The notes under the pieces are model-generated. The model ran no database searches and was not told the DNA's origin. It saw only the letters and a program-made list of their open reading frames with translations. 64,000 nt of DNA from Zygnema cylindricum (taxonomy: Eukaryota; Streptophyta; Zygnematophyceae; Zygnematales; Zygnemataceae), in NCBI GenBank assembly GCA_037447655.1, contig JBBHKE010002493.1, forward strand, positions 109,341-173,340, given 5' to 3'. Every line of letters begins with the position of its first letter. The stretch's first letter is position 1. Shown one piece after another: positions 3,603-61,033 of the stretch. The position numbers and the translations under genes are program-made.

Positions 3603-4359
3603 TGAAACTTTGAGACCTCCATAAGTCCTCAGAGTGGACAGCATCCAAAAAGCCTGTAGGATAACCTTGACCCTTTTGTGTTTCAGTAAGAACAACTGCC
3701 ACCCTAGCAGACAAAAACTCTGACCAACTTCACCTCTGTGAAGTGAAGACTCCTTCGAGTCGATAGCAAAAAGAATCTCTGAATTTGCTCCCCTGAACAG
3801 TAAGTTACGTAGGGTCAAAGTTGACCTTTTGTACAGAAGCTCTTTGGGAGAGAGGGTCCTATCTCCTATTTTTTCTAAGTCCTATCTTTCTCACAGACTC
3901 TATCTACTGATGACCCGAGCCAATCAGATTACTCCTCCATACACAAAAGTACAGCTGCCGGTGTACTTTCTGTATGAACATCGTACGACATGGCCTAAAT
4001 GTCGACACGTGGTATATCCGGATTCTCTCCCTTAATCCTTGGAGATGCCGCGATCCAATGTCATTCCGCCACGTGTCATCCGATGTGGCGATGATCAAAA
4101 AGGTCGAAATTCTCTTCGGCGATCTCGGCGTTTAATTTTGGCCGTCCGAATAAATTCACATTTAATCGTAGCTGTAATAAATAAATGAGCGGTATTCGTT
4201 TTTTATCGTTACCGTAATCTGTACTTTTACATTACTGGATCTATGTCTCCCGTAAAACTATTTAAGTTAAATGAACTATCCTACGTATTAATGTTTAATT
4301 AATTATCAAACTCTATGTTATGTAACACTATCTGTAGACTTAACGGTTAAGGCTACCCG
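3603..4359 (-). repeat. 5' LTR of copia-Z, left part
   Basis: Begins TGAAACTTTGAG (LTR end TTTCA on the minus strand) beside the PBS and runs to the copia-A insertion point. It continues at 16457. The flanks of A are ACCCG (4355-4359) and ACCAG (16457-16461), a one-mismatch TSD. Together the two parts give about 1.04 kb. Confidence 0.88.
4339..4359 (+). other. tRNA-like module of the Z LTR, A-box half, interrupted
   Basis: TAACGGTTAAGGC at 4341-4353 resembles a D-arm/A-box. Copia-A is inserted 6 nt after GGTTAAGGC. The B-box half resumes after 16456. Confidence 0.5.
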
Positions 4360-5413
4360 TGTACAAATTAATGGTCCATTTAAAGTATTTTCTAGGTCTA
4401 AATAGAAATATAAAAAGAAGCTGAGGCAGTCTACCTCTAACTTCACTCTTCAACTCTCAAACTTGTCGTAGTCACTGAGAAATTGGAGAGGGAGCTAGAG
4501 CCATGGCTACCTTGGCTATCTAGAGGTTTACGGGAAATTTATATTAGTTAGGGGTTTATTTAATAAAAGGTATATGCGGACCACAGTATTTGATCCTGAT
4601 ACCTACCGGACGGTAGACAACCGGTAGCCGGTAGCCTTAGCCGTGAAGTCTTTCAATAGAGTTACGTACTATATGGTTTAATATCTAATTAAACATTACC
4701 AAGTAGGATAATTCAATTAACTGTAACTATTTACGGGATGCATAGATCTAGTAATGTAAAAGTACGGATTATGGTACGGATAAGAAACGAATACCGCGCA
4801 GTTATTTCTTTAGCGAAACAAATATCGCGCATGTATTTATTACGACTACGATTTAATATGAATGTGATCCGACGGCCGGAATTAACGCCAAGATCGCGGA
4901 AGGGAATTTTGGCAGTTGTGGTCATCGCCACATCGGATGACACATGGCGGAATTACATTGGATCGCGGCATCTCCGAGGATTAAGGGAGCGAATCCGGAC
5001 ATACCACAAGTCGACATTTAGGCCATGTCGTACAATGTCCGTACAGAAAGTACACCGGCAGCTATACTTTTGTGTACAGAACTGTATTATGATTGGCTCC
5101 GTACATGAGTAGATAGAGTCTATGAGAGAGATATGACTTAGAAAAATTAGGAGATAGGACCCTCTCTCCTAGAGAGCTTCTGTAAAAAAGGTCAACTTTG
5201 ACCCTCCATAACTTACTGCTCAGGGGAGCAAATTCAAAGATTCTTTTTGCTATCGACTCAGTGGAGTCTTGCCTTCACAGGGTAGAAGTTAGTCAGAGTT
5301 ATTGTCTACCAGGGTGGCAGTTGTTTTTCCTAAAACACAAAGGGGTCAGGGTTATCCTAGAGGCTTCATGGAAGGTATCCACTCTGAGGACTTATGGAGG
5401 TCCCTGAGTTTCA
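4360..5413 (+). repeat. 5' LTR of copia-A
   Basis: 1054 bp, from TGTACAAATTAATGG to GAGTTTCA. It matches the 3' LTR at 15406-16456 along its length with scattered substitutions. Confidence 0.92.
4563..4650 (-). other. antisense tRNA-like module in the A 5' LTR
   Basis: On the minus strand: A-box-like block at 4633-4645 (ACGGCTAAGGC, reverse of GCCTTAGCCGT), B-box-like GGATCAAATA at 4587-4596, T run at 4565-4568. The B-box is slightly decayed. Confidence 0.45.
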
Positions 5414-6230
5414 GGTTATTGGCCCACCCTTTAGGGTACCAATCTTTAATGGAAATGGCTTCATATACTGGGAAAGTATGATGATAGGAGCTCTATGCGA
5501 ATAAAGGTTTTGGGTGATAGTGAGTGGACGGTTAGGGCGTCCATCAAGTCTAAGAATCCCTCCAGGGTTAGGAGGAAGCTGATTTTACCAGGAAAGAGGA
5601 TCCACCTTCAACGGAAGAGACAAAGGAGGGAGAGGTGGTGGATAAAGGAAAGGAGAAAGAGGCAACACACCAATAGCAACTGGTTCGGCATTCATGTCAC
5701 CTATTCCGAGGAACGAGGAGAATGATACTAAAACCAGGGATTTCAACAATATGGCGGCAAAGCACTTCATCCTACGCCATCTCACTCAAGGACTTGCTTG
5801 TCCTCATTTGCAAGTAGAAAGGGCATCCGATCTTTGGATGGCTCTCATAGAGATGTACCGAAGTGGTACGATTCAGCAACAACAGTTGGCTGATCAGAAA
5901 GTTAAGGAGTATGTATACAAAGGGGGGAAGATGTTGGATTTTTGCAATGAGCTTGCTACGCACTTCGTGGAGCTAGAGAGTATGGGAAAAGATTTTAGTG
6001 AAAAAGAAAAGGTTAACTGTTTACTGATGAAGTTACCCGATGAGTTCGAGAACATAGTCAACAGTGTGCAAGACTTGCTGGACTCAAGGTGGATAGGAAA
6101 CTGAGTGGTAGGGATGATTTTCGTTCGAGAGAATACGATTGAGATCCGAAGGGGAGGAAAAAGTGGCCAAGCCTTGGCAATTGCGACCGACTGGAGGAAC
6201 AAGGATTCGCAAAAACCTGTGAGAAACTAT
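5394..6230 (+). pseudogene. copia-A gag, N-terminal part
   Basis: The ATG at 5394 lies 20 nt inside the LTR; translation would run through the PBS as QVIGPPFRVPIFNG. The capsid-like region (5694-6104) has HFILRHLTQGLACPHL, QQQLADQKVKEYVYKGGKM and LLMKLPDEFENIVNSVQ. In-frame stops occur near 5500 (TGCGAATAA), near 5580 and at 6102-6104. After 6104 the frame continues as VGMIFVRENTIEIRRGG until copia-B enters at ACTAT (6226-6230). The zinc knuckle follows B at about 11930. Confidence 0.85.
5414..5426 (+). other. primer-binding site of copia-A
   Basis: GGTTATTGGCCCA follows the LTR end TTTCA directly. It has one mismatch to the iMet anticodon-loop complement. Confidence 0.7.
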
Positions 6231-7541: not shown

Positions 7542-8017
7542 ATAGGTCAATGACATTTTGTCCATTTTCTCTTCCAACATCTTATAGGATGATGCCACGT
7601 GTAATTTCCTCCTATTTCGCCGTACTTCTCCCAGATAGTCGTTCCGGCATCCCGACACTCTAATGTCGTCTGTTCTTTTCACGGTGATTAATTGCAGCCG
7701 TTTGATATGACGGCGTGCTGAATAAATGTTGACTGTTGAATTTCACCGGTCAAAGTTCCGTGTTGACCGTTGAATTTCGACGGTCAACATTCCGTGTTGA
7801 CCGCTTAAATTTTATTCTTGCTTCGCGAGCCATCGATCGCGACATTTAATTTTGTCCGTCGAAATCAAATGTTTGTTTCATTTATTTTGTGCGGTACTGC
7901 ATTTTGTGCGGTACCACACGTTCCATGTTTCGTTTCGTTTCGTAAGATGTTAAACGGAATATGCTGTATGTTTTCTTTAAATACTTATCTAGTACAATAC
8001 ATGCATCGATTCATGAT

Positions 8018-8106
8018 GACCGAACGGATAAGACGAGCGCCTTTTCTGTACGGCTTTCGCCCAGAGGTTACAGGATCAAATCATGTATGTGGCGACGTAA
8101 ATTTTG
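8018..8106 (+). other. antisense tRNA-like module in the B LTR
   Basis: A-box-like ACCGAACGGATAAGAC at 8019-8034, B-box-like GGATCAAATC at 8073-8082, T run at 8102-8105. Plus strand, antisense to the element. Confidence 0.42.
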
Positions 8107-8253
8107 CAGGAGCTTTGTCTTCTGTCTATCTTCTCATCTGTCCAAGGCAGCCATGGCTGCCTGGCAATTCTCAATGACTACGACAAGTATGAGAACTGGA
8201 AGACTTTAAAAGGTAGAATACAAAATATCACTTTTCAACACTCCCCTTATTTT

Positions 8254-11117: not shown

Positions 11118-11866
11118 CCCAGTACGGATATATTCGGCACCATTCCCGGTCTGCCACGTGGCAAAATACGTCAATGATATTCTCTCCATTTTCTCTTCCA
11201 GCATCCTATAAGATGATGCCACGTGTAATTTCCTCCCATTTTGCCGTACTTCTCCCAGATAGTCGTTCCGGCATCCCGGCACACACGCGTGTCGTCCGTT
11301 CTTCTCACGGTGATTAATTGCAGCCGTTCGATCTGACGACGCGCCGAATAAATGTTGACCGTTGAATTTCACCGGTCAAAGTTCTCTGTTGACCGTTGAA
11401 TATCGACGGTCAACATTCCGTGTTGACCGCTTAAATTTTATTCTTGCTTCGCGAGCCGTCGATGGCAACATTTAATTTCGTCCGTCAAAATCAAATGTCT
11501 GTTTCATTTATTTCGTGCGGTATTGCATTTCGTGCGGTACCACGCGTTCCATGTTTCGTTTCGTTTCATAAGATGTTTAACGGAATATGCTGCATGTTTT
11601 CTTTAAATACTTATCAAGTACAATACATGCATTGATTCATCAAGACCTAACGGATAAGACGAGCGCCTTTTCCATACGGCTTTCGCTCGGAGGTTACAAG
11701 ATTAAATCATGTATGTGGCGACGTAACTTTTGCAGGAGCTTTGTCTTCTATCTATCTTCTTATCTGTCCAAGGCAGCCATGGCTGCCTGGCAATTCTCAA
11801 TGACTACGACAAGTATAAGAACTGCAAGACTCAAAAAGGTAGAATACAAAATATCACTTTTCAACA
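11118..11866 (-). repeat. truncated 5' LTR of copia-B
   Basis: Matches 7497-8240 of the complete B LTR. The right tip TTTCAACA ends at 11866 and is followed by the TSD ACTAT. The left part of the LTR is deleted with the PBS. Confidence 0.9.
11644..11735 (+). other. antisense tRNA-like module in the B 5' LTR
   Basis: A-box-like CTAACGGATAAGAC at 11647-11660, weakened B-box AAGATTAAATC near 11698-11708, T run at 11728-11731. Confidence 0.35.
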
Positions 11867-15405: not shown

Positions 15406-16456
15406 TGTAAAAATTAATAGTCATTTTAAAGTATTTTCTAGGTCTAAATAGAAATATAGAAAGAAGCCGAGGCAGTCTACCTCTAACTTCTTTCTCCAAC
15501 TCTCAAACTTGTCGCAATCATTGAGAAATTGGAGAGGGAGCTAGAGCCATGGCTACATAGGCTATCCAGGTTTACAGGAAATATATATTAGTTAGGGGTT
15601 TATTTACTAAAAGGTATATGCCGGCCACAGGATTTGATCCTGATACCTACCGGACGGAGACAACAAGTTGCTGGTAGCCTTAGCCGTTAAGTCTTTCAAT
15701 AGAGTTAAGTACTATGTGGTTTGATATCTAATTAAACATTATCAAGTAGGATAATTCAATTAACTGAAACTATTTACGGGATGCATAGATCTAGTAATGT
15801 AAAAGTACGGATTATGGTACAGATAAGAAACGAATACCGCGCAGTTATTTCTTTAGCGAAACACATACCGCGAATGTATTTATTACGGCTACGATTTAAT
15901 ATGAATGTGATCCGACGGCCGAAATTAACGTCGAGATCGCGGAAGGGAATTTTGGCAGTTGTGGTCATCGCCACATCGGATGACACATGGCGGAATGACA
16001 TTGGATCGCGGCATCTCCGAGGATTAAGGGAGCGAATCCGGACATACCACGTGTCGACATTTAGGCCATGTCGTACAGTGTCCGTACAGAAAGTACACCG
16101 GCAGCTGTACTTTTGTGTACGGAACTGTAATCTGATTGGCTCCGTACACTAGTAGATAGAGTCTATGAGAGAGATATGACTTAGAAAAATTAGGAGATAG
16201 GACCCTCTCTCCCAAAGAGCTTCTGTACAAAAGGTCAACTTTGACCCTCCATAACTTACTGCTCAAGGGAGCAAATTCAGAGATTCTTTTTGCTATGGAC
16301 TTAGAGGAGTCTTGCCTTCACAAGGGTGAAGTTGGTCAGAGTTATTGTCTACCAAGGTGGCAGTTGTTTTTCCTGAAACACAAAGGGGTCAGGGTTATCC
16401 TAGAGGCTTCATGGAAGTTGTCCACTCTGAGGACTTATGGAGGTCTTAGAGTTTGA
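15406..16456 (+). repeat. 3' LTR of copia-A
   Basis: 1051 bp, from TGTAAAAATTAATAG to GAGTTTGA (terminal CA decayed to GA). The flank ACCAG at 16457-16461 is the TSD partner of 4355-4359. Confidence 0.92.
15608..15695 (-). other. antisense tRNA-like module in the A 3' LTR
   Basis: Minus strand: A-box-like GACTTAACGGCTAAGGC at 15677-15693, B-box-like GGATCAAATC at 15631-15640, T4 at 15609-15612. Better kept than the 5' LTR copy. Confidence 0.48.
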
Positions 16457-16739
16457 ACCAGCTACCGGTTGTTTAACGTGTGGCAGGTACCAAGATCAAA
16501 TCCTGGAGGTGGTACATATATTTTAGTAAATATATCCTTTAGTATAAATAAATTAATATTTATATCCCGTAAACCTTTGAATAGCCTAGGTAGCCACTGC
16601 TTTAGCTTCCTCATCAATTTCTCAGTGACTACGACAAGTTTGAGAGTTGGAGAGAGAAGTTAGAGGTAGACTGCCTCGGCTTCTTTCTATATTTCTATTC
16701 AGACCTAGAAAATACTTAAAAAGACCATTAATTCCTACA
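16457..16739 (-). repeat. 5' LTR of copia-Z, right part
   Basis: Starts with TSD ACCAG, continues the LTR interrupted at 4359 and ends with the tip ATTCCTACA at 16739. Gypsy sequence begins at once. Confidence 0.88.
16462..16524 (+). other. tRNA-like module of the Z LTR, B-box half
   Basis: GATCAAATCC at 16494-16503 and T4 at 16521-16524. Joined with 4339-4359 it would form one module of about 85 nt before copia-A inserted. Confidence 0.48.
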
Positions 16740-17953: not shown

Positions 17954-18907
17954 CTAATTATCCGAAATAGTAATGAGGGGAAGTTTCAACTTTTTCACCG
18001 TCTTCTTGTTGATAAAATTCCCCGACGCGCCTGAATCCACCATGAAGCTAGCTGCGCTCGTACCAATTTGACCTTGAAAAACCAAAGGGTCACCACCTTC
18101 ACCAGCTAACCTCGTGACTGTGAGCTTGCCCTTCTTAGGAACTTTCCTTTTTGGGCAATCCTTGGCAATATGGTCTGAGGAACCGCACTGGAAGCACAAT
18201 TCATTTTGTCTTCCCCGTTGGAGCTCCTCGGGGGACGAGCCATTGGCCTTGGCCTTAACGGTTTTCTTCTTCTTCCGAATTCCATTGACCGCGTCTTTGT
18301 CACCATTTACCGCTCCGAGCTCCATAGGAGTAGGACCATCATCCCTTCGACCTCCCCCGTTGCTGCTCGATCCAAAATAATAGGATCTACAAAGGGTGAA
18401 GTCTTCCGAATCGGTCCATTCCGCAAACTGAATAATTACCGAGAGGCTAGGAGTCACAGTTTCCCGCGCGAGCCACTGTTCCACATCCCTCCGAATGGAT
18501 CCCTTGAGCCCCTTCACATAACGATCCACGGCTTCATCTTCTGTTATCGTAGGTATTTGAACCTTGCCCACCAAGAACCGTTGCGTGTACTCCATAACCG
18601 AAGTACGTTGCTTTAGAATCGATATTTTATCCCTTACAGCCTTGATCGTATTCACGGGTTGCCACGAGTCGCGGAGGAGTTGAACAAAATTGGACCACTC
18701 AGCAGGTATCTCATCGCTTTCTACCAGTGTTCTCCACCATACTTTTGCTGTTCTTTTAAGCAAACCGCCAGCGTAGTGAACCTTTTCACAATCTGACATG
18801 CTGAGGAAATTTTTGAGATAATTCGCCATGGAAAATAACCACGCATCAAGATTCTTGTGACAGGCCGGGTCAAACTCGTCGGGAAGTCTAAGCTTGGGTC
18901 TCCTCAA
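17954..18907 (-). pseudogene. gypsy gag with zinc knuckle and protease start
   Basis: A 317-codon open frame. Gag region (residues 1-150): LDAWLFSMANYLKN, RTAKVWWRTLVES, VMEYTQRFLVGKVQIP. Zinc knuckle CFQCGSSDHIAKDCP at about residues 240-254. Protease-like active site FMVDSGASGNFI at about residues 287-298. Then a stop at 17954. Gag would package element RNA; the zinc knuckle binds it. This is a contiguous gag-protease fusion, as usual in gypsy. Confidence 0.88.
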
Positions 18908-18937
18908 GTCTCTCTCTGTGCCTCCATGAGTTCTTTC

Positions 18938-19086
18938 TGTAGAAACTAATGGTTTTATTAGTATTTTCTAGGTCTGAAAAGAAATATAGAAGTCGAGGCA
19001 GTCTATCTCTAACTTCTCTCTCCAACTCTCAAACTTGTCGCAGTCACTGAGAAATTGGAGACTTTAAAATACCATGAATTTCTACA
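18938..19086. repeat. 149-bp chimeric LTR fragment with inverted tips
   Basis: The left 120 bp match the 5' start of family A LTRs in plus orientation (TGTAGAAACTAATGG). The last 26 bp are an LTR tip in the opposite orientation (ending ATTTCTACA). The two tips form a terminal inverted repeat. The flanks CTTTC and CTCTA do not match, so it is more likely a recombination scar than a transposition unit. It separates the gypsy gag from copia-C. Confidence 0.6.
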
Positions 19087-26430: not shown

Positions 26431-26913
26431 TGTTGAAATAACTAGTTTTTGTGTATTTTCTAGGTCAAATATATTAGCGAAAACAGAAAATAAAAATGCA
26501 AGCAACCTGCCTTCATCTCTTCTCTCTTGCCCCCCTACTTGTTCCAGTCACTCAAAGAGAGAGAGAGTGATGGTGCCATGAATATAGAGTTCCTATTGGA
26601 TTATGGTTTAGTAGTAGGTATAAGTGAGTTGATAGACTAAGTCTTAGTGAAATTTAGGTACCTCGCTCTAAAATAGCTTGTATTTATAAATGTAATTTTT
26701 GACAAACCATAACTAACTGCTTAAGGGAGCAAATTCAGTGATTCTTTTTGCATTTGGCTCAACGGAGTCATGTCCTCATAGGGGTGAAGGTGATCAGAAC
26801 ATTTGTGTGCCTCCATGGTACTTATTCAGTGGGAAAGTGAAAGGGGCAAATATTATCATACAGACTTTACATAGGCTGCCATTCTGTGGGTTAATGGAGA
26901 CCACTGAATTGCA
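26431..26913 (+). repeat. internally deleted LTR, D/G family
   Basis: Starts TGTTGAAATAACTAG and ends CACTGAATTGCA, both typical, but is only 483 bp. About 530 bp in the middle are missing, including the tRNA-like module. The flanks GTACC and ACTAA do not match, so it marks a recombination or deletion boundary between copia-E and the LINE fragment. Confidence 0.8.
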
Positions 26914-27560
26914 ACTAATATGGTAGCCGCCGATGATTTTAAGAATCTCTTTGAGGTGCTCCCTACAGCTGACGCACGGGCTCGAATTTGCTTTTGTTTA
27001 GGTCCAAGTGTTGAGGCTTGGCTCGTCACTACTCCAATTTTTGCCTCACTTCGTTTCTCTTATCAACAAATTTTTTTTGCGCTCCGCTTACGGCTCGGCT
27101 TGCCACATCCCTCTCTCTTGGGCAAGCCTCGTTCTCTTTGTAGCCAAATTATCGACAAGCAAGGTGTTTATTTGCTCCGTTTTTCACACGGTGGAGAGCG
27201 CACCATGGCACGTGATTCATTTCAAGATGCAATAGATTCAGTGGGTTATGAAGCAGAATACACAGTGAAATGCAAAAAGTCTCACATATCTTTCCTCAAC
27301 GCTCTCAATCAAGAGGTGTACATGGCTTTCGTGTGGATCTCGTTTTTCTGCATGGGGTAAATAGAACATTGGGGGACGTAGTTGTCATCGATCCTACAGG
27401 ATCCCATGTTTAGACGTTGTGCGCCACTACATACGGGTGTTGCGTCTCGAGATGCAGCGACCTTGAAAGAACGTGATTACGCTCAACAAGACCCAGCTTA
27501 CAACTTTGTTCCTTTTGCTAGGGAGATATTTGGGACCTTATATTCGTTGCTTGACAACTT
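26914..27560 (+). pseudogene. LINE-like ORF, C-terminal region, first piece
   Basis: Reads ADARARICFCLGPSVEAWL, FALRLRLGLPHPSLL, then a degenerate Cys/His cluster (SLCSQIIDKQGVYLLRFSHGGER) and, after a frame break near 27350, LGDVVVIDPT, VASRDAATLKERDYAQ and FVPFAREIFGTLYSLLDNF. In my knowledge this order matches the part after the RT in plant LINE-like proteins, with a Zn-binding segment and a nuclease-like VDP(T) block. The RT itself is absent. Cut by copia-F at AACTT; it continues at 34019. Confidence 0.6.
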
Positions 27561-28614
27561 TGAAACTTTGAGACCTCCATAAGTCTTTAGAGTGGACAGC
27601 TTCCAAGAAGCTTCTAGGATAACCCTGACCCCTTTGTGTTTCCTCAAGAATTACTGCCACCCTGGCAAACAAAAATCTGACCACCTTCACCCCTGTGAAG
27701 GCAAGACCCCCTTGAGTCAATAACAAAAAGAATCTATGAATTTGCTCCCTTGAGCAGTAAGTTATGGAGGGTCAAAGTTGACCTTTTGTACAGAAGCTCT
27801 CTGGGAGAGAGGGTCCTATCTACCAATTTTTCATAAGTCCTATCTCTCTCAAAAACTCTATCTACTGATGTACGGACCAATCATATTACTCCTACGTACA
27901 CAAAAGTACAAGTGCCGATGTACTTTCTGTATGAATACTGTACGCATGTCCAAAATATCGACACGTGGTATATCCGGATTCGCTGCCTTAATCCCCGGAG
28001 ATGCCGCGATCGAATGTCTTTTTGCCACGTGTCAACCGATGTGGGGATGCCCACAAACCGCCGAAATTCTCTTCTGCGATCTCGGCATTCATTCCAGCCG
28101 TCCGATTAAATGCATATTTAATCGTAGCCGTAATAAATACCTGCGCGGTATTCGTTTCACTATCGAAACAAATGCGCGGTACTTCTTCCTTGTCCGTACC
28201 TTTAATCCGTACTTTTACATAAGTGGATCTATGTATCCCGTACGCAGTTGTAGTTAAATGATTTATCCAACGTAATTATATATAAATAATTATCAAACCC
28301 TGTACTATGTATCGTTGGATTTAGACTTAACGGTTAAGACTACCGGCTACTGGCTATCTACCATTCCTTAGGTACCAAGATCAAATCCTGGTGTCCAATC
28401 CTTTTAGTAAATATACCAGTAAATAAACTAATCTATTTCACGTAAATCTCTGGATAGCCTAGGCAGCCATGGCTCTAGCTTCCACTCCAACTTCCCAGTG
28501 ATTGTGACAAGTGTGAGAGTTGGAGAGAGAAGTTAGAGATAGACTGCCTCGACTTCTTTGTGTATTTTAATTTAGACTTAGTAAACACTGAAAAATAAAC
28601 CATTAATTTCTACA
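27561..28614 (-). repeat. 3' LTR of copia-F
   Basis: 1054 bp, TG...CA ends (TGTAGAAATTAATGG to GAGTTTCA-type end on the minus strand). Pairs with 32958-34018. Confidence 0.93.
28322..28406 (+). ncRNA. antisense tRNA-like module in the F 3' LTR
   Basis: TAACGGTTAAGAC at 28328-28340, GATCAAATCC at 28379-28388, T4 at 28402-28405. The arrangement is the uninterrupted counterpart of the split Z module. Confidence 0.5.
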
Positions 28615-32977: not shown

Positions 32978-34018
32978 AAGTCCTCAGAGTGGACAGCTTC
33001 CAAGAAGCCTCTAGAATAACCTTGACCGTTTTGTGTTTCTGCAAGAAATACTATCTTCCTAGTAAACAAAAACTTTGACCACCTCTACCCCTTTGAAGGG
33101 AAGACTCCCCCGAGTCGATAGCAAAAAGAATCTCTGAATTTGCTCCCCTGAGCAATAAGTTATGGAGGGTCAAAGTTGACCTTTTGTATAGAAGCTCTCT
33201 GGGAGAGAGGGTCCTATCTACCAATTTTTCATAAGTCCTATCTCTCTCAAAAACTTTATCTATTGATGTACGGACCAATCATATTAATCCTACGTATACA
33301 AAAGTACAAGTGCTGGTGTACTTTCTGTACGAATACTGTACGACATGTCCGAAATGTCGACACGTGGTATATCCGGATTCGCCCCTTTAATCCCCGGAGA
33401 TGCCGCAATCCAATGTCTTTCTACCACGTGTCATCCGATGTGGCGATGCCCACAAACCGCCGAAATCCTCTTTTGCGATTTCGGCATTCATTCCGGCCGT
33501 CTGATTAAATGCATATTTAATCGTAGCCGTAATAAATACCTGCGTGGTATTCATTTCGCTATCGAAACAAATGCGCGGTACTTGTTCCTTGTCCGAACCT
33601 TTAATCCGTACTTTTACATAAACAGGATCTATGTATCCCGTACGCATTTCTAGTTAAATGATTTATCTAACGTAATTATATATAAATAATTATCAAACCC
33701 TGTACTATGTATCGTTGGATTTAGACTTAACGGTTAGGACTACCGGCTACCGACTATCTACCATTCCGTAGGTACTAGGATCAAATCCTGGTTTTGACTT
33801 TAATCCTTTTAGTAAATAAACTGGTAAATAAACTAATCTATTTCCCGTAAATCTTTGGATAGCCTAGGCATCCATGGCTCTAGCTTCCACTCCATCTTCT
33901 AGTGACTGCGATAAGTATGGGAGTTGGAGAGAGAAGTTAGAGATTGACTGCCTCGGCTTCTTTCTGTATTTTAATTTAGATGTAGATAATACTTAAAAAG
34001 GAACCATTAATTTCTACA
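32958..34018 (-). repeat. 5' LTR of copia-F
   Basis: 1061 bp, tip TTTCTACA at 34018 followed by TSD AACTT. Contains CGACACGTGG and GCCACGTGTC-type ACGT motifs and the GTAC hairpin. Confidence 0.93.
33722..33796 (+). ncRNA. antisense tRNA-like module in the F 5' LTR
   Basis: TAACGGTTAGGAC at 33728-33740, B-box-like GGATCAAATCC at 33778-33788, T4 at 33792-33795. Confidence 0.5.
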
Positions 34019-35363: not shown

Positions 35364-36382
35364 TGTTGAAATTCATAGATTTCTATAGTATTTTCTAGGT
35401 TTAATATGTTAGGAAAAGAAAAGGACAGACGCCCTGCCTCCACCTCCTCTCTCTAGCCCCCATACTTGTTGTAGTCACTGAAGGATAGAGAGGGTGGTTG
35501 ATCCATGGCTACCTTAGTTCAACAGGCAGTTATTTTTAGTAGGTTACTAAATATAGTATTGACGAACCCGAGTTTTTTACCCGGTACCTTCAGTTCATCA
35601 AGTTGGCCGATAGCGGTCAGCTTTATCCTACTAGACTAGGACCAATGCTAAATGCCATAGAGTGTGATAGATATATATATATATATTTAGAGTGTAAGAA
35701 ATCCATTTAACTAAAATTAGATACGACGTTCATAGATACAGTTTTAGTACGACATCATTTCAGAATAAATCCCTCGCATTTGTTCGACAGCGAAACAAAT
35801 ATATCGCAAGTAATTATAACGGCTACGATTACGTCTCATTACGAATCCGACGGCGCACGTCATCGCCAAAATCCCGGAGTGGTCACCTTGGCGTTTTGTG
35901 ACGTGGCATGACCTGGAGCCACGTGGAGAGATGACATTCGGTCATAGGAATTCCGAGGAATGTACGGACAAGTAAAAATCACACACGCGTCCACTTAATA
36001 GCCTTGTCGTACATAGGCCGTACAAAAGGTACACCGGCAGTAGTACCTTTTGGTACGCTACAGTAATTTGATTGGTCCGTACTTCAGTAGATAGAAGTTA
36101 TTAGAAGGAATCAGGACTTAGAAAATTTTGGTAGGTAGTCACCTCTCCCTTTGAGAGTTTGTACAAATTGGCATTTTCAGTGCCTCATAACTTATCGGTT
36201 GGTTGGCTGTTTTCAGTGATTCTTCTTGCTACGGACTCAGGGGAGTCTAGGCTGCACAGGGGTGCAATCAAATTGTCAGTTTGCCTTCTTGGGCAGAAGT
36301 GGTCGTGGCTTAAAGTGGGTTAGTGAAATACTATCTAGAGGCTTCCTGTATTCTGTAGTCCAATGGAGGACACAAAATTGCA
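35364..36382 (+). repeat. 5' LTR of copia-D
   Basis: 1019 bp, TGTTGAAATTCATAG to ACAAAATTGCA. It differs from the 3' LTR at more than 20 positions in the first 640 bp and at none I could see after about 36000. Confidence 0.95.
35560..35645 (-). other. decayed tRNA-like module in the D 5' LTR
   Basis: The A-box-like TAGTCTAGTAGG is kept (about 35626-35637), but the B-box is ruined: where the 3' LTR reads GGATTTGAACC this copy has AGTTTTTTACC. Confidence 0.45.
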
Positions 36383-37430
36383 GGTTATAGGACCACCCTC
36401 TAAGGTGCCCACCTTCAATGGATCTGGGTTCATCTATTGGGAAGCCATGATGATGGGAGATTTGTGTGAAAAACGATTCAGGGGTATCGTCAATGGACAA
36501 GTGAAACGTCCACCTTCGGGAACTCCACCAAGATTTGGGGGAGTCAGGTTTTCTGCAACAATGGCTGCCTCACCGGAGGAGGCACATGATGGGAACAACA
36601 ATGTGTCCAAAAAAGAGAAAGGGAAGGAGACACCCCTCACTCCTATTTCCACAGTATCGGGAGCGGCGACCGTGAAGACCGTGGAGAACGATACTCAAAT
36701 GTGGGAGGATGTAAACATGGCTGCCAAGAACTTCATTCTGAGGCACCTCACTCAAGGTTTGGCCACTCCTCATCTTCACATTTACAAGGCCGAGGAGTTG
36801 TGGGAGAGTTAGGTGGAGATTTATAGAGCTGGAAATATTCAGGAGCTCCAGTTGGGTGAGCAAATGCTATTGAGTTACACTTACAAAGAAGGAAAGATGT
36901 TAGATTACTGTAATGATCTTTCTTGTTTGTATATGGAAATGGAAAGTGCCGGGTGGACAGGTACAATAATAATGAAAGTTAACACCCTTATCATGAAATT
37001 TCCAGATGAGTCGGAAAACATAGTGTACCGAGTACAGGGAATGCCTGATAGTTCATGGAAATGGAACACAGTAGTCAGGATGATACTTGTGCAGGAAAAC
37101 ACAATGGAGATTAGGAGAGGAGGAAAGAGCATTCAAGCTCTAGCAGCAGGAGGGGACCGATGGGGGAAGGACCCGAAGAAACCTTATGGAGGGGAAATAG
37201 ATCATTCTCGGGGACAGAAGCCCCCAAAGGGTCTTTGTCATTATTGCAAAATGCCGGGACACTTTATTGCAGATTGTGTCAAGCTACCAGAGCTGAGGCT
37301 CCAAAGAGAACCGTGGAGGAGGTTCTTCGGAGGGAAGAAAAAGGCACTTGTGGTTACAAAATTGTCAGGAGAAACGGAGGATGAGTCCTCTGAGGAGGAT
37401 GGGGAGCTTCTTCTTGACGAGAGTCTAGAG
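36363..37430 (+). pseudogene. copia-D gag
   Basis: ATG at 36363, 20 nt inside the LTR; reads MEDTKLQVIGPPSKVPTFNG through the PBS. Blocks: NFILRHLTQGLATPHLHIYK, TAG at 36810-36812, QELQLGEQMLLSYTYKEGKM, MKFPDESENIVYRVQGM, RRGGKSIQAL, zinc knuckle CHYCKMPGHFIADC at about 37238-37280. About 350 codons in all. Only one stop, so this is the most readable complete gag of the D type. Confidence 0.88.
36383..36395 (+). other. primer-binding site of copia-D
   Basis: GGTTATAGGACCA right after LTR end TTGCA. Two mismatches to GGTTATGGGCCCA. Confidence 0.7.
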
Positions 37431-40725: not shown

Positions 40726-41740
40726 TGTTGAAATTCATAGATTTTTATAGTATTTTCTAGGTTTTATATGTTAGGAAAAGAAAAGGACAGACAGCCTGCC
40801 TCCACCTCCTCTCTCTAGCCCCCATACTTGTTGTAGTCACTAAAGGATAGAGAGGGTGGTTGATCCATGGCTGCCTTAGTTCAACAGGCAGTTATTTTTA
40901 GTAGGTTACTAAAAATAGTACTGACGGACCCGGGATTTGAACCCGGTACCTTCAGTTCGTCAAGTTGGCGGATAGCGGTCAGCTTTATCCTACTAGACTA
41001 GGACCAATGCTAAATGCCATAGAGAGTGATAGATATATATATATTTAGAGTGTAAGAAATCCATTTAACTAAAACTAGATACGGCGTGCATAGATACAGT
41101 TTTAGTACGACATCATTTCAGAATGAATACCTCGCATTTGTTCGACAGCGAAACAAATATCTCGCAAGTAATTATAACGGCTACGATTACGTCTCATCAC
41201 GAATCCGACGGCGCACGTCATCGCCGAAATCCCGGAGTGGTCACCTTGGCGTTTTGTGACGTGGCATGACCTGGAGCCAGGTGGAGAGATGACATTCGGT
41301 CATAGGAATTCCGAGGAATGTACGGACAAGTAAAAAGCAGACACGCATCCACTTAATAGCCTTGTCGTACATAGGCCGTACAAAAGGTACACCGGCAGTA
41401 GTACCTTTTGGTACGCTACAGTAATTTGATTGGTCCGTACTTCAGTAGATAGAAGTTATTAGAAGGAATCAGGACTTAGAAAATTTTGGTAGGTAGTCAC
41501 CTCTCCCTTTGAGAGTTTGTACAAATTGGCATTTTCAGTGCCTCATAACTTATCGGTTGGTTGGCTGTTTTCAGTGATTCTTCTTGCTACGGACTCAGGG
41601 GAGTCTAGGCTGCACAGGGGTGCAATCAAATTGTCAGTTTGCCTTCTTGGGCAGAAGTGGTCGTGGCTTAAAGTGGGTTAGTGAAATACTATCTAGAGGC
41701 TTCCTGTATTCTGTAGTCCAATGGAGGACACAAAATTGCA
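40726..41740 (+). repeat. 3' LTR of copia-D
   Basis: 1015 bp, followed by TSD GGTTG. It holds a GTAC hairpin: GTACAAAAGGTAC at 41378-41390 and GTACCTTTTGGTAC at 41401-41414. Confidence 0.95.
40911..41007 (-). ncRNA. antisense tRNA-like Pol III-type module in the D 3' LTR (well preserved)
   Basis: Minus strand: A-box TAGTCTAGTAGG (complement of 40989-41000) fits TRGYNNAGTNGG exactly. T-arm CCGGGTTCAAATCCCGG has a 5-bp stem and a 7-nt loop; B-box GGTTCAAATCC at 40933-40943. T5 at 40911-40915 lies within the near-palindrome TTACTAAAAATAGTA. The 5' flank does not pair with the sequence after the T-arm as an acceptor stem, so it is tRNA-like rather than a tRNA gene. Confidence 0.55.
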
Positions 41741-42378: not shown

Positions 42379-43581
42379 CGATTAGCAGTGTACAGTATTA
42401 AATACCTCTCGAACTCTTTTATTATAGAGCAGTTGGCATTGGTTGCTATATTACCAAAAAACATTTCAAAATTATCACTAATTTTAGGGAATTGATCATG
42501 GAAGTGACTATTTTGGTTGCGCAGAGTCACTTGCGTCACATTGTCAAAGATTGTACATTTTAGGTACACGCTAGTACAATTTAAGTACCGCTGACTTTTG
42601 ATTTAACGGTCAACCAAGTGCATCGCTTAGACTTTCAAAATGTTGAAACAATCGGTTAAACTTTTGTCGCGCTTGTTAACGTCGACGGTCATATTAAAAT
42701 CAATAATTCACACGGTCGGGAAAGGTTTACGGTAACAAAATTGCTCCAACCACATGTAAATAAAAGTGTTGCAGACAGTGACTTTTTGACTTTACGCGAG
42801 CTCCACTTTGAGAGCACATGTTGGCTTTTTTACTTAGCTGCAAAATTGAAATTTAATCGCGAATGGTTACATTGAACTTAGACGCAAATAAATAAACGAC
42901 ACGAAATCTTTTACGAATAAATTAACTCGTACAAAACGAAATATAATGTAGATTGTTTTATTGATATTTTACATGCGCGTCGTCACACGCGACTAAATGA
43001 AGCAAAACTATTTATTATTCCCGATTAAATTTCAATTTATATGATATTTTTATGCGAGGTCCGTTTTATTTTAGTGTACAAAGTATATTTCGTTACGTGG
43101 GAGTTATTTTATCCGTATAAGAGTTCTCAACGTTCATTAATTTCCATCTAAGTTCAATGTAAAGATTTACGATTAAATTTTATTTTTTGTGGCTAAGTTA
43201 AAAGCCAATATGTGCTCTCAAAGTGGATCTCGCATAAAGTCAAAAAGTGACTATCTGCAACATTTTTATTTACATGTGGTTGTCGCGGTTTTGTTACCGT
43301 AAACCTTTGCCGACCGTTTGAATTTTTGATTTTACTATGACGGTCAACGTTCACAAGCGCGGCAAAAGTTTAACCGTTTGTTACAACATTTTGAAAGTTG
43401 AAACACTTCAATTGATTGACCATTAAATCTATGGCAAGCAATAGTTAAATTATACCAGCGTGCACTTAAAATGTACAATGTTTGACAAAGTGACGTAACT
43501 AATTGTGCGCAACCAAAATAGTCACTGCTTTGATCAATTCCCTAATTTTATTTTAGGTCAAAGGTAGTAATGTACACCGTG
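42379..43581. mobile_element. long inverted-repeat (foldback/MITE-like) element
   Basis: The left arm (about 42379-42905) and right arm (about 43121-43581) are inverted copies with substitutions and small indels. Matching pairs include AATTTTAGGGAATTGATCA, CTTTGAGAGCACAT, ACATGTAAATAAAA and TACATTGAACTTAGA with their complements. The loop is about 215 bp. No ORF. The outermost match AGCGATT (42379-42385) has its complement AATCGCT at 61106-61112, on the far side of copia-G, so G inserted near the right tip. The superfamily is unknown; arms this long suggest a Mutator-like or foldback type. Confidence 0.7.
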
Positions 43582-48368: not shown

Positions 48369-49529
48369 TGTAACTCTGAGACCTCCATTGGTACTCAAAG
48401 TGAGCAGATCACAAAAAAACTTAATTAGGTAGTGCCGACTCAAAGTTGATACAAACCTAAATGACCGACCCTTTGACAATTTGAACCCCATAAAAGCTTC
48501 ACCCTTGTGAAATAAGAATTTCTGTGTGCTCAGTTCCATCGCAGAATGCAAAGTTAGAATATGACTTTTTGGATAACATTCCCTTTTTTGACTTTCCCTT
48601 AGAAATGCAGCCACCTTGGCAAGAAAATATTCTAAATGACTACACCTTTGTGTAGCTTAGACTACCCTGAGTCCGTAGCAAAAAAGAATCTTTGAATTTG
48701 CTTCTCTGAGCTGTTAGTTATGGCTGGCCAAAGCCGGCCTATAAATACAGAAGCTCTCTAAGAAAGAGGCGGCAACCTAAGAATTGTCTAAGTCCTCATG
48801 CCCTCTCTAAACCCTTTATTACTACTCTTCCTAGCAAATCCTACGACTGAAAAGTACAAGAAAGTAGAGGTGTCGGTGTACATATTCTACTGCCATGTAC
48901 AGCATGGCCGTCCCGCTAACGTATGTCATTTCCAAAGCCATCGTCGCATCCTCCACGATATTCGCTCTCCATTAGTGGCCTACGACGTGTCATCCAATGA
49001 CGTCTCACCCATAAACCGCCAGCTGACCACTCCAGGGCTTCGGCTCTATTGTGAGCAGTCTGATCAACGCAACATTTAATATCGTCCGTTGAAATTGCAT
49101 GTCGACTTCATTTAGTGCGTTCTGATTTCTTTTAGTGCGTCAATGGTAGTTTTCTGTATTTCCGGGGATGTAATGTGTGAAATGCATTCCGCGACGTGTT
49201 AATTTATAAATACCTTACGTACCCTATATACTTCAGCATGTTTTAGACTACAGGATAAGACTAACGACTACTTTTACGAATGGCAGGTGCCAAGATCAAA
49301 TCTTGGGTCCGTGAATGTTTTTTGATAAAACTACCAACTTCTCCTTCCTGTCGCCTTAAAACAACCTAGACATCCATGGCTCTAACTCCCTCTCCAGTAT
49401 TTAGTGACTGCGACAAGTGTGGGGACTTGAGAGAGGAGTTAGAGGCAGACTGTTTATGCTACTTTTCTGCCTTTTATTTTACATTCTTCAGACCTTAAAA
49501 ATACGCAAAGAAAACCACTAATATCTACA
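48369..49529 (-). repeat. 3' LTR of element I
   Basis: 1161 bp, among the longest here. Tip ATATCTACA, followed by the purine-tract complement CTCCCCTTATTTTCT (49530-49544). The gag ATG position is intact (CAATGGAGG) in this copy. Confidence 0.92.
49243..49323 (+). other. antisense tRNA-like module in the I 3' LTR
   Basis: GACTACAGGATAAGAC near 49246-49261, B-box-like GATCAAATCT at 49294-49303, T6 at 49318-49323. Confidence 0.42.
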
Positions 49530-51410: not shown

Positions 51411-52572
51411 TGTAACTCTAAAACCTCTATTGGTACTCAGAGTGAGCAGATCACAAAGAAGCTTATCTTGGTATTGCCGACTCCAAGTTGATAAAAACCC
51501 AATTGACTTACCCCTTGACAATCAAGACCCCATTATAGCTTGACACCTATGATATAAGACTTTCTGTGTGCTCAAATCCACTGCAGAATGCAAAGTTAGA
51601 ATATGAGTTTTTAGATAACATTCCCCACTTTGACTTTCCCTTAGAAATGCAGCCACCCTGGCAGGAAAAAACTCTGACCGACTACACCCTTGTGTAGCTT
51701 GGACTCCCTTGAGTCCGCAGCAAAAAGAATCTCTGAATTTGCTCCCCTAAGTAGTTAGTTATGGCTGGCCAAAGTCGGCCTATAAATACAAAAGCTCTCT
51801 AGGAGAGAGGCGGCAACCTAAGAATTGTCTTAGTCCTCATCCCCTCTCTAAACCCCTTACTAATGTTGTACCTAGCTAATCCTACGATTGTAAAGTACAA
51901 GAAGGTATAGGTGTCGCTGTACTTCTTGTATGGCCATGTACGGCATGGCCATCCCGCTGACGTATGCATTTTTTGAGCCGTAGTTGCATCCTCCGCGATA
52001 TTTGCTCTCCATTAGTGGCCTGCCACGTGTCATCCGGCGACGTCTCCCCCATAAATCGCGAAACGACCGCTCCGACACTTTGGCTCTATTGTGAGGTATC
52101 TGATCAACACAACATTTAATTGCGTTCGTTGAAATTACATGTGGACTTGATTTAGTGCGTTCTGATTTCTTTTAATGCGTCAGTGGTAGTTCTATGTATT
52201 TCCTGGGCTGTAATGTGTTAAATGCATTCCGCGACATGTTAATTTAGAAATACCTAACGTACCCTATATACTTTTGCACTGGTCTTAGACAACAGGATAA
52301 GACTAACAGCTACTTTCACGGACGGTAAGTGCCAAGATCAAATCCTAAGTCCGTGAATGTTTTTTGATAAAACTACCAACTTCTCTTTCTTGTCTCCTTC
52401 ATACCAACCTAAACAACCATGGCTTTAACACCCTTTCCAGTCTTTAGTGATTGCAACAAGTTGGAGGACTTGAGAGAGGAGTTAGAGGCAAACTGTTTGT
52501 GCTACTTTTGTGCCATTTATTTTACATCCTGCAGACCAAGAAAATGTTCAAAGGAAACCACTAATTTCTATA
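51411..52572 (-). repeat. 5' LTR of element I
   Basis: 1162 bp, tip decayed to TTTCTATA. The gag ATG reads ATA (CAATAGAGG). It contains GCCACGTGTC and a GTAC hairpin. Confidence 0.9.
52280..52366 (+). other. antisense tRNA-like module in the I 5' LTR
   Basis: ACAACAGGATAAGAC near 52289-52303, B-box-like GATCAAATCC at 52336-52345, T6 at 52360-52365. Confidence 0.45.
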
Positions 52573-54684: not shown

Positions 54685-55714
54685 TGAAACTTTGTGTCCT
54701 CCATTGGACTACACAGTACACGTAGCCTCTAGATAGTTATTAACTAACCCACTTTCAATGGCAACCACTGCTACCTAAGCAGACAAGCAGACAATTTGAC
54801 TACACCACTGTGCAGCTTAAACTCCCCTGAGTCCATAGGAAAAAGAATCTCTAAAAACACTGAACCAGGCGATAACTTATAAGCTGGCGAAAATGCAAAT
54901 TTATACAACCTCTCAAAGAGAGAGTAGACCATTTACCAAATTTTTTTAAGTGCTAGTTCCATCTCACAACCCCTATCTACAAACTGTACGAACCAATCAG
55001 AATACTTTACAGTACATAAAAGTACTACTGCCGATGTACTTTTTGTACGACCTTTGTACGACAAGGCCATTAAGCGGACGTGTGTCTATTTTCCACTTGT
55101 TCGTACGTTCCTCGGAATTCCCGCGACCGAATGTTATCTCTCCACGTGGCGCAAAGTCATGCCGCATCACTAAATGCCAAAATGACCATTCCGGGATATC
55201 GGAGATGATGTGCGCCGTTGGATTTGACTCGAAATGCAATCTCGGCCGTTATAAATACTTGCGCGATATTTGTTTCGCTGTCGAAACAAAATGGACGGTA
55301 TCCGTTTCAAAGTAGTATCGTACTTCGTACTTTATAAAACTGTATCTATACATGTCGTATAGAGTTCCAAATAAATGAATTTGTTCACTTCTAAATACAT
55401 ATATATTTATCACATACTATAGCATTTAGCATTGGTCCTAGTCTAATAAGATAAAGCTGACCGCTATCGGCCAACTTGACGTACGGCCGGTACCGGGATA
55501 AAATCATGGGTCCGTATATTTTTGTAACCTACTAAAAATAACTTCTTGTTGAACTAAGGCAGCCATGGATCAACCACCCTCTTTATCATTAAGTGACTAC
55601 AATAAGTATGGGGGCTAGAGAGAGGAGGTGGAGGCACGCTGTCCGTTCTTTTTTTTTTTTTATACTAACATATTTAAACCTAGAAAATACTCTAGAAATC
55701 TATGAATTTCAACA
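54685..55714 (-). repeat. 3' LTR of copia-J
   Basis: 1030 bp, tip TTTCAACA at 55714, then CTCCCTTTATTTTCT (purine-tract complement with one change). The gag ATG is intact (CAATGGAGG). Confidence 0.93.
55433..55524 (+). other. antisense tRNA-like module in the J 3' LTR
   Basis: A-box-like TAGTCTAATAAG at 55439-55450, decayed B-box GGGATAAAATC at 55495-55505, T5 at 55519-55523. Confidence 0.42.
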
Positions 55715-59157: not shown

Positions 59158-59981
59158 ATAATCTGCAATGAAGTGTCTCGACTTTTTGCAAAAATGTCAA
59201 AGACCCTTTGGGGGCCTCGGTCCCCCAGAATGATCTCTTTCCCCTTTGTAAGGTTTTTTCGAGTTCTTCCCCCATTGGTCCCCTCGTGCTGCTAAAGCTT
59301 GAATTCTCTTTCCTCCTCTCCTTACCTCTATTGTGTTTTCCTACAAAGTATCATCTTGACCACTGTGTTCTATTTACATGAACTATCAGGCATATCTTGT
59401 ACTCGGTACACTATGTTCTCGAACTCATCTGGTAACTTCATGATAAGGGTGTTAACTTTAATTTTCGTTGTACCTGTCCACCCGCCACTTTCCATCTCGA
59501 TATACAAACAAGAAAGATCATTACAGTAATCTAACATCTTTCCTCCTTTGTAACTGTAACTCACTAGCTTTTGTTCAGCCAATTGGAGCTCTTGAATAGT
59601 TCCAGCCCTATAAACCTCCACCAAACTCAACCACTACTCCTCGGCCTTGTAAATGTGAAGATGAGGGGTGGCCAAGGCTTGAGTGAGGTGCCTCAGAATG
59701 AAGTTCTTGGCAGCCATGTTTACATCCCCACATGATACTTCTTCTCACTATTGCCGCTGGTACTGTGGCAGATAGGAGTGTGGGGCGCCTCCTTCCCTTT
59801 CCCCTTTTCGAACACATTGCTGTAGGAAACCTTACTCCTCCAAATTTTGGTGGAGTTCCTAAAGGTGGACGTTTCACTTGTCCACTAACGATACCCCAGT
59901 ATCGTTTTTCGCACAAAGCTCCCATCATCAATGCTTCCTAATAGATGAACCCAAATCCATTGAAGGTAGGCACCCTAGAGG
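59158..59981 (-). pseudogene. copia-J gag
   Basis: GPPSRVPTFNGFGF-type start read from the PBS, a stop at about 59940, then MSLVEVYRAGTIQELQLAEQ, MLDYCNDLSCLYIEME, LIMKLPDEFENIVYRVQDM and a damaged zinc knuckle near 59190. About 60 bp of the middle segment is rearranged near 59720-59740. Frameshifts throughout. Confidence 0.8.
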
Positions 59982-59994
59982 GTGGGCCCATAAC
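59982..59994 (-). other. primer-binding site of copia-J, exact
   Basis: The minus strand reads GGTTATGGGCCCA, continuing CCC, right after LTR end TTTCA: an exact half-tRNA iMet match. Confidence 0.75.
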
Positions 59995-61033
59995 CTGAAA
60001 CTTTGTGTCCTCTATTGGACTACACAATATAAGAAGCCTCTAGATAGTTATTAACTAACCCACTTTCAATGGAAACCAGTGCTACCTAAGCAAAAAAGCA
60101 GACAATGTAACTATACCCTTGTGCAGCTTGGACTCCATTGAGTCTGTAGGAAAAAGAATCTCTGAAAACGCCCAACCACGGGATAAGTTATAAGCTGGCA
60201 AAAATGCCAATTTATACAACCTCTGAAAGAGAAAGTAGACCATCTACCAGATTTTTTTAAGTCCTAGCTCCCTCTCACAACCCCTATCTACTAACTGTAC
60301 GAACCAATCAGAATAGTGTACACTACATAAAAGTACTACTGCCGATGTACTTTTTGTACGACCTTTGTACGACAAGGCCATTAAGCGGACCCGTATCCAT
60401 TTTCCACTTGTCCGTACGTTCCTCATAATTCCTGCGACCAAATGATATCTCTCCATGTGGCGCCAGGTCATACCACGTCACTAAATGCCAAAGTGACCAT
60501 TCCGGGATTTCAGCGATGATGTGCGCTGTTGGATTTGACTCAAAATGCAATCTCAACCATTATAAATACTTGCGCGATATTTGTTTCTCTGTCGAAACAA
60601 AATGCGCATTATCCGTTTCAAAATAGTATCATACTTCATACTTTATAAAACTGTATCTATGCATGCCGTATAGAGTTTCTGTTAAATGAATTTGTTCCCT
60701 CCTAAATACATATATATTTATCACATACTATAGCATTTAGCATTGGTCCTAGTCTTATAGGATAAAGCTGACCGCTATCGGCCAACTTGACGAACGGCAT
60801 GTACTGGGATCAAATCCCGGGTCCATCACGTATATTTTTAGTAACCTACTAAAAATAACTTCTTGTTGAACTAAGGCAGCCATGGATCAACCACCCTCTC
60901 TATCGTTCAGTGACTAAAACAAGTATGGGGGCTAAAGAGAGGAGGTGGAGGCAGGCTGTCCGTCCTTTTTATTTTTTTTTATACTAACATAATTAAACCT
61001 AGAGAATACTCTAGAAATCTATGAATTTCAACA
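59995..61033 (-). repeat. 5' LTR of copia-J
   Basis: 1039 bp, tip TTTCAACA at 61033. The gag ATG has become ATA (CAATAGAGG), unlike the 3' LTR copy. Confidence 0.93.
60743..60840 (+). ncRNA. antisense tRNA-like module in the J 5' LTR
   Basis: A-box TAGTCTTATAGG at 60750-60761, T-arm-like GGGATCAAATCCC at 60806-60818, T5 at 60835-60839. One of the best kept copies. Confidence 0.52.

Follow-up and report, generated by a model that had tools for sequence, protein, structure and literature searches.

A candidate antisense TFIIIC/Pol III-type element in the LTRs of Ty1/copia retrotransposons of Zygnema cylindricum

The LTRs of Ty1/copia elements in Zygnema cylindricum carry, in U3, a block that runs antisense to the element and combines a box B, a weaker box A and a T-run in the manner of a tRNA-type promoter. 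The letters that matter most in it evolve more slowly than the sequence around them, and the block is therefore probably in use in these LTRs. We read it as a resident antisense TFIIIC/Pol III-type element in the U3 of an autonomous Ty1/copia lineage, a reading that we regard, from the letters of the DNA, as roughly an even call. A bolder proposal is an active antisense Pol III unit in U3 that autonomous copia elements both retain and exchange as a cassette; its small RNA would be complementary to the 3' end of the genomic RNA of the same elements. This proposal is tentative, and on balance we doubt it. The analysis centers on a window of 64,000 nucleotides (contig JBBHKE010002493.1, positions 109,341 to 173,340), together with further stretches of the same genome.

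Nested Ty1/copia elements make up the window, along with one gypsy-type gag. Copia-type Pfam domains (RVT_2, rve, gag_pre-integrs and Retrotran_gag_2) were found in seven of the eight window frames tested, and the eighth is the gypsy-type gag, with a zinc knuckle and the start of a protease (17954-18964, minus strand). The best protein matches are some 30-50% identical, their named sources including oomycetes, plants and the alga Closterium and the others being metagenomic; one further protein had no match in the protein search. The LTRs are about 1 kb long and the elements about 6.4 kb, with pol frames. In elements D and E the Ty1/copia hallmarks are all present, namely a TG...CA LTR pair, a primer-binding site (PBS), a PPT and a target-site duplication. 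Both LTRs of D (5' LTR 35364-36382, 3' LTR 40726-41740, plus strand) are 96.8% identical across the BLAST match and bear the 5-bp repeat GGTTG at their outer sides, while ACCCA stands at both outer sides of E (5' LTR 59996-61033, 3' LTR 54685-55714, minus strand); the LTRs of the two elements start with TGTTG and end with CA. Directly after 5' LTR copies comes GGTTATGGGCCCACC or a close variant, as at 59981-59995 in E (minus strand), 36383-36397 in D and 44596-44610 in C4, and this makes the orientation of the LTRs certain. The tRNA part to which the PBS is complementary is the anticodon arm of the host initiator tRNA-Met rather than its 3' end, and the match is exact in E and C4; this tRNA, which we take to be green-plant-like, was found at five places in the same genome. 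Anticodon-arm priming has been reported for Drosophila copia and Ty5 (available part of PMC10886601). Adjoining the C4 LTR lie inverted repeats of about 460 bp that are 83% alike (42484-42945 and 43084-43545).

In the D 3' LTR the block, hereafter also called the module, occupies 40911-41007 on the minus strand. It consists of box A, TAGTCTAGTAGG (40989-41000), box B, GGTTCAAATCC (40933-40943), and a T5 run (40911-40915). Box A is perfect there, the gap between the boxes is 45 nt, and box B lies within a stem in which five of five pairs form, so that the A-box, B-box, perfect T-arm and T5 named in an initial sequence-only reading are all borne out. The A-B spacing needed, as cited, is 30-60 bp (available part of PMC5391098). 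Elsewhere the parts are kept unequally. Box A is imperfect in families other than D/E, and the T-run follows 13-19 nt past box B in most copies. Box B has decayed in the D 5' (D5) and E 3' (E3) modules, in D5 together with the T-run, and both parts are intact in the D 3' (D3) and E 5' (E5) modules. The box B consensus is GWTCRANNC; among 47 distinct modules, a set that includes 20 C copies retrieved through similarity to the whole module, it is matched exactly in 35 and with at most one mismatch in 45, and T4 is present in 46. Two features of a type 2 Pol III promoter are thus in place, a box B and a T-run terminator. The window contains 31 box-B-like 11-mers (at most one mismatch); 100 shuffles averaged 13.8 (sd 3.6) and in no case reached 31. 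Of the 31, 16 are inside blocks, and the 15 elsewhere are about the number expected by chance. C-type LTRs have, in addition, a conserved near-palindrome directly past the T-run, AGAGTGACTTAAGTCACTCT in several copies (for example 61416-61435 in C2), which is about as conserved as the boxes across 30 C-type rows.

Antisense modules had been claimed for nearly every LTR, in about 20 copies, and an iterated nhmmer profile agrees, with 22 window copies at E < 0.01 out of 25 listed at E <= 1. On the plus strand of the window lie the modules of the E 5' LTR (60741-60844), E 3' LTR (55430-55526), B 3' LTR (28313-28411) and B 5' LTR (33713-33816), two F-type modules (49237-49328 and 52277-52370), two G-type modules (8007-8108 and 11635-11735), the C-type module C0 (22364-22455) and one module truncated at the window edge (1-45). 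Two other plus-strand modules belong to interrupted LTRs, one split by element A into 16439-16530 and 4327-4359, the other a remnant in the LTR interrupted by C1 (23880-23944). On the minus strand are the module of the D 5' LTR (35543-35647), those of the A LTRs (4559-4658 in the LTR at 4360-5417, and 15603-15702 in the LTR at 15406-16457) and the C-type modules of C1 (23073-23165), C3 (34399-34491), C4 (43790-43881), C5 (53944-54035) and C2 (61434-61526).

Position and orientation are as constant across families as had been proposed. All 17 window LTRs that have both the U3 head and the following "mid" part carry the block between them, antisense, and so do all 11 sampled LTRs in which both neighbours of the block survive. 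With a whole-LTR profile and a cutoff of E < 0.01, the block was found in every one of the 18 window LTRs spanning the place and in 11 of 13 from the genome sample, the two exceptions being badly decayed (L035:1119-1727, no block; L048:1646-2010, E 0.18); the same profile gave 36 of 36 in D-type loci, a set retrieved through their likeness to the block itself. Two window LTRs are without it, one consisting of the head only (18938-19061) and one with a deletion (26431-26916). None of the 71 matches at E < 0.01 in the window, L001-L048, L069 and L070 falls outside an LTR. The genome sample, 20 stretches totaling 195 kb that were chosen arbitrarily but not at random from the 353-Mb genome, yielded 11 block matches at E < 1e-6, and an additional 20 kb held neither block nor LTR parts. 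Genome-wide searches with the D-type and the C-type block returned at least 40 scored matches each. In a copia copy of L041 (2098-8544), the LTR heads and modules are identical, the downstream parts are 99% alike, and an open frame of 1312 codons lies between; the pair is young, and the block is therefore present in recently mobile copies.

Nested insertions bear on another suggestion of the sequence-only reading, that the block attracts integrase. Leaving aside ambiguous junctions (L007, L011 and the second one in L017), we counted seven clear insertions into LTRs. Two copia insertions fell within another LTR's module, at 4359/16457 and 23882, with about 0.7 expected by length, and two, those of L004 and L017/L018, hit the same head position (model 146-152). 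The seven show no clear preference for the module, and the suggestion is left without clear support.

How fast the boxes change bears on the strongest rival, in which the block is a functionless fossil, inherited from an ancestral LTR into which a tRNA-derived piece, a SINE or a tRNA half, was inserted antisense. We consider this rather unlikely. In 19 copies compared between families, mean column identity is 0.95 for the T-run, 0.71 for box B, 0.53 for box A and 0.37 for the module remainder; when the mask was rotated, the value observed for both boxes and the T-run was reached by 1 of 109 placements, and that for the boxes alone by 10 of 109. Parsimony changes were counted on trees built from the LTR part downstream of the module. 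In clade C (9 LTRs), changes per site amount to 0.455 in box B, 0 in the T-run, 1.06 in box A, 1.28 in the other module positions and 1.23 in the LTR outside. In clade ABF (10 LTRs), where the T-run columns of the LTR alignment were lost to gaps, the values are 0.364 for box B, 0.72 for box A, 1.27 for the other module positions and 1.12 outside. Within-module permutation gave p 0.016 (C) and 0.0029 (ABF). The ranks are modest when the whole mask is slid along the LTR, 26 of 843 placements being as slow in C and 14 of 735 in ABF. A module-only alignment of ABF gives 0 changes per site in the T-run, 0.22 in the box-B core, 1.11 in its tRNA-like flanks and 1.09 in the rest. Box A is weakly constrained, barely in clade C and moderately in ABF.

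The comparison of boxes with their surroundings, proposed at the outset as a refuting test, came out divided: box B and the T-run are slower between families, which makes a pure fossil less likely, whereas box A is so only slightly and the D-type copies give no significant difference. In the latter, box A shows 0.019 and box B 0.042 against 0.049 for flanking LTR (12.9% of placements as low), in a set of 27 fetched copies, picked by module similarity, and three window LTRs (E5 and E3 included), with the query copy left out. This is as expected for post-insertion decay; the copies are mostly recent and belong to one family. The absence of significant excess constraint there nevertheless fits a fossil, as does the fast evolution of the module overall, which is among the least conserved LTR parts between families. 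On the other hand, in two clades the remaining sequence changes faster than box B and the T-run, and these two parts are conspicuous in comparisons between families whose divergence is otherwise close to saturation.

The history of the D/E lineage is also relevant. In the LTR downstream of the module D/E groups with s34 (97/100), whereas in the module it groups with A/B/F (100/100), and D/E LTRs are C-like both before and after the module. E5 and s34a are 82% identical outside the module and 47% inside, against 55% outside and 73% inside for E5 and s39b. A clade of D/E with s34 is rejected for the module (p 7e-84). AU tests left two other arrangements unrejected, D/E held with A/B/F and C alone on the other side (p 0.255 for the rest, p 0.296 for the head) and, for the module, D/E with C (p 0.288); D/E as sister of all C is therefore formally possible. 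It appears likely, if unproven, that the D/E lineage exchanged its block for one of another type at the same place and in the same orientation. A fossil sits poorly with D3 and E5, which keep box B and the T-run intact even though their lineage seems to have swapped the block; the decay of box B in D5 and E3 tells against this argument.

The tRNA likeness itself, which the sequence-only reading had ascribed to the whole block, holds for the 3' half and not for the 5' half. Searched with the Rfam tRNA model RF00005, the window, L034 and L041 gave nothing at E values up to 10, and the same model does detect two tRNA-Lys genes in L033; a tRNA gene, with a cloverleaf that the covariance model would match, is accordingly rejected for the window, L034 and L041. 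ARAGORN is uninformative at relaxed thresholds, where it called 108-175 "tRNAs" in the window. We compared modules with host tRNAs from 30 loci, drawn from at least 63 Rfam matches and four of the five initiator places, of which ARAGORN read 29 as tRNA; class II tRNAs (Ser, Leu) were absent from this set, and one pattern search found none. Against the 29 distinct host tRNAs, seven of eight ABF modules are nearest the initiator tRNA-Met and the eighth is a tie, D3 and E5 are nearest tRNA-Gln, and three of four C modules are nearest tRNA-Asn, the fourth having no clear best. From variable loop to acceptor, the initiator and each of ten ABF modules agree at 17-23 of 28 positions. The resemblance past box B in five ABF modules was reached by 1, 1, 0, 3 and 7 of 200 box-preserving shuffles, and the 5' halves of seven modules gave nothing above shuffles. 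The block thus probably derives from the 3' half of a tRNA rather than from an intact one. That tRNA likeness is left in the 3' half only, that Rfam finds no tRNA and that 19 modules lack a consensus structure are all points in favor of a fossil. A separate tRNA-pseudogene- or SINE-like sequence with a T-run lies at L029:9637-9721, with a weak module match (E 7).

Folding bears on a second rival, improbable in our view, in which U3 has at this place a conserved DNA- or RNA-protein site, an enhancer or a hairpin, whose likeness to box B is accidental. U3 commonly contains factor-binding sites, two single modules, C2 and D3, beat their shuffles in folding (z -2.45 and -2.40), RNAalifold finds hairpins when C-type modules are aligned by themselves, and the conserved palindrome lies beside these same modules. 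Against this, the z-scores of B3, F1, E5 and L041 are 0.32, -0.46, -0.76 and -1.35. RNAalifold placed no pairs over the 19 modules and single folds vary among families, so a conserved RNA fold or cloverleaf is rejected. The true register of the T-arm pairs best in all three groups, marginally so in C (3.83 of 5 pairs vs 3.72 one base off); the tests speak against a conserved T-stem, its positions outside box B being unconstrained in ABF (1.125 changes per site). This counts against a chance U3 site, as does the tRNA likeness, which continues past box B. Moreover, the fixed differences in box B between families, at positions 54 (A/T), 57 (A/G) and 59 (A/G), are ones that GWTCRANNC permits, although single-copy changes also hit fixed positions.

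The primer tRNA offers a last rival. In Ty3, the 3'-end part of the primer-binding site lies in U3. That the block is likewise the second half of a bipartite PBS, in which U3 pairs with the initiator tRNA primer, is very unlikely: the PBS does fit the anticodon arm of the initiator, and this is the tRNA that ABF modules resemble best, but primer complementarity is absent from all six modules tested from C and D/E (their initiator scores of 9-13 compare with about 11-12 for shuffles), which resemble other tRNAs although E5 and C4 keep the same PBS, the ABF positions that are complementary to the tRNA but lie outside box B are unconstrained (1.11 vs 1.09), and 18 of 19 modules have a T at position 60, mismatching the A of the initiator.

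Under the reading that we prefer, a resident antisense TFIIIC/Pol III-type element, box B would bind TFIIIC, and box B with the weak box A would most likely direct Pol III to make an RNA of about 100 nt that is antisense to U3 and stops at the T-run. The element's own RNA has U3 as its 3' untranslated part, where the antisense RNA could pair. In a close alternative within this same reading, TFIIIC would dock without transcription, and the block would act as an ETC-like site that shapes chromatin or a nearby Pol II promoter.

LTR elements are taken to be driven by Pol II, and an active antisense Pol III unit, if true, would be a second polymerase system built into the LTR. The sequence-only reading knew of no precedent, which needs qualification. 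Pol III-type LTR sequences have been described for non-autonomous elements (PMC10886601); our search of the openly accessible literature turned up no description of an antisense unit of tRNA type in the LTRs of autonomous copia elements. According to the available part of PMC10886601, the TRIMp3 elements Helenus, Ajax and Cassandra are non-autonomous and have small-RNA promoter sequences in their LTRs, and its Discussion argues that autonomous partners need Pol II and would hardly have a long LTR stretch in common with such TRIMs; the term "antisense" is absent from its text. Helenus (Kojima, 2024) is like the copia block, so far as that source was available, in having tRNA-derived LTR sequence with boxes A and B, in conserving the boxes mostly without a working tRNA and, in most fungal families, in copia-like anticodon-arm priming (PMC10886601). 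It differs, in the same available part, in being short and non-autonomous with a Pol III unit thought to drive the element (PMC10886601), whereas the copia block is antisense and sits in protein-coding elements. Cassandra and Ajax share Pol III promoter-type LTR sequence, but theirs is derived from 5S rRNA and they too are non-autonomous (available part of PMC10886601). Set against the description of Helenus and TRIMp3 as short and non-coding, the elements here have LTRs of about 1 kb, a length of about 6.4 kb and pol frames; of the tRNA-derived LTR sequence, box B and the 3' half are present, and box A and the 5' half are weak.

The miRNA genes of foamy viruses are in sense orientation. These viruses resemble the proposed unit in that they are autonomous retroelements with Pol III-directed miRNAs (bovine and simian) that are LTR-encoded in the simian case, and they differ in being vertebrate viruses (available parts of PMC7693620 and PMC7104284). 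The bipartite PBS of Ty3, the precedent for the last rival, places sequence complementary to a tRNA close to the 3' end of the genomic RNA (available part of PMC4974528); in the copia block such complementarity is missing or unconstrained as described above. Dictyostelium rDNA A/B-box loci and ETC sites, like the copia block, have tRNA-type boxes without a tRNA, but lie outside mobile elements (available part of PMC5391098). If true, a constrained antisense tRNA-type promoter would give the elements, or the host, a route to antisense RNA, TFIIIC recruitment and the setting of chromatin at very many sites. The Pol III-type LTRs that we found described belong to tiny non-autonomous elements; those considered here are the LTRs of coding elements.
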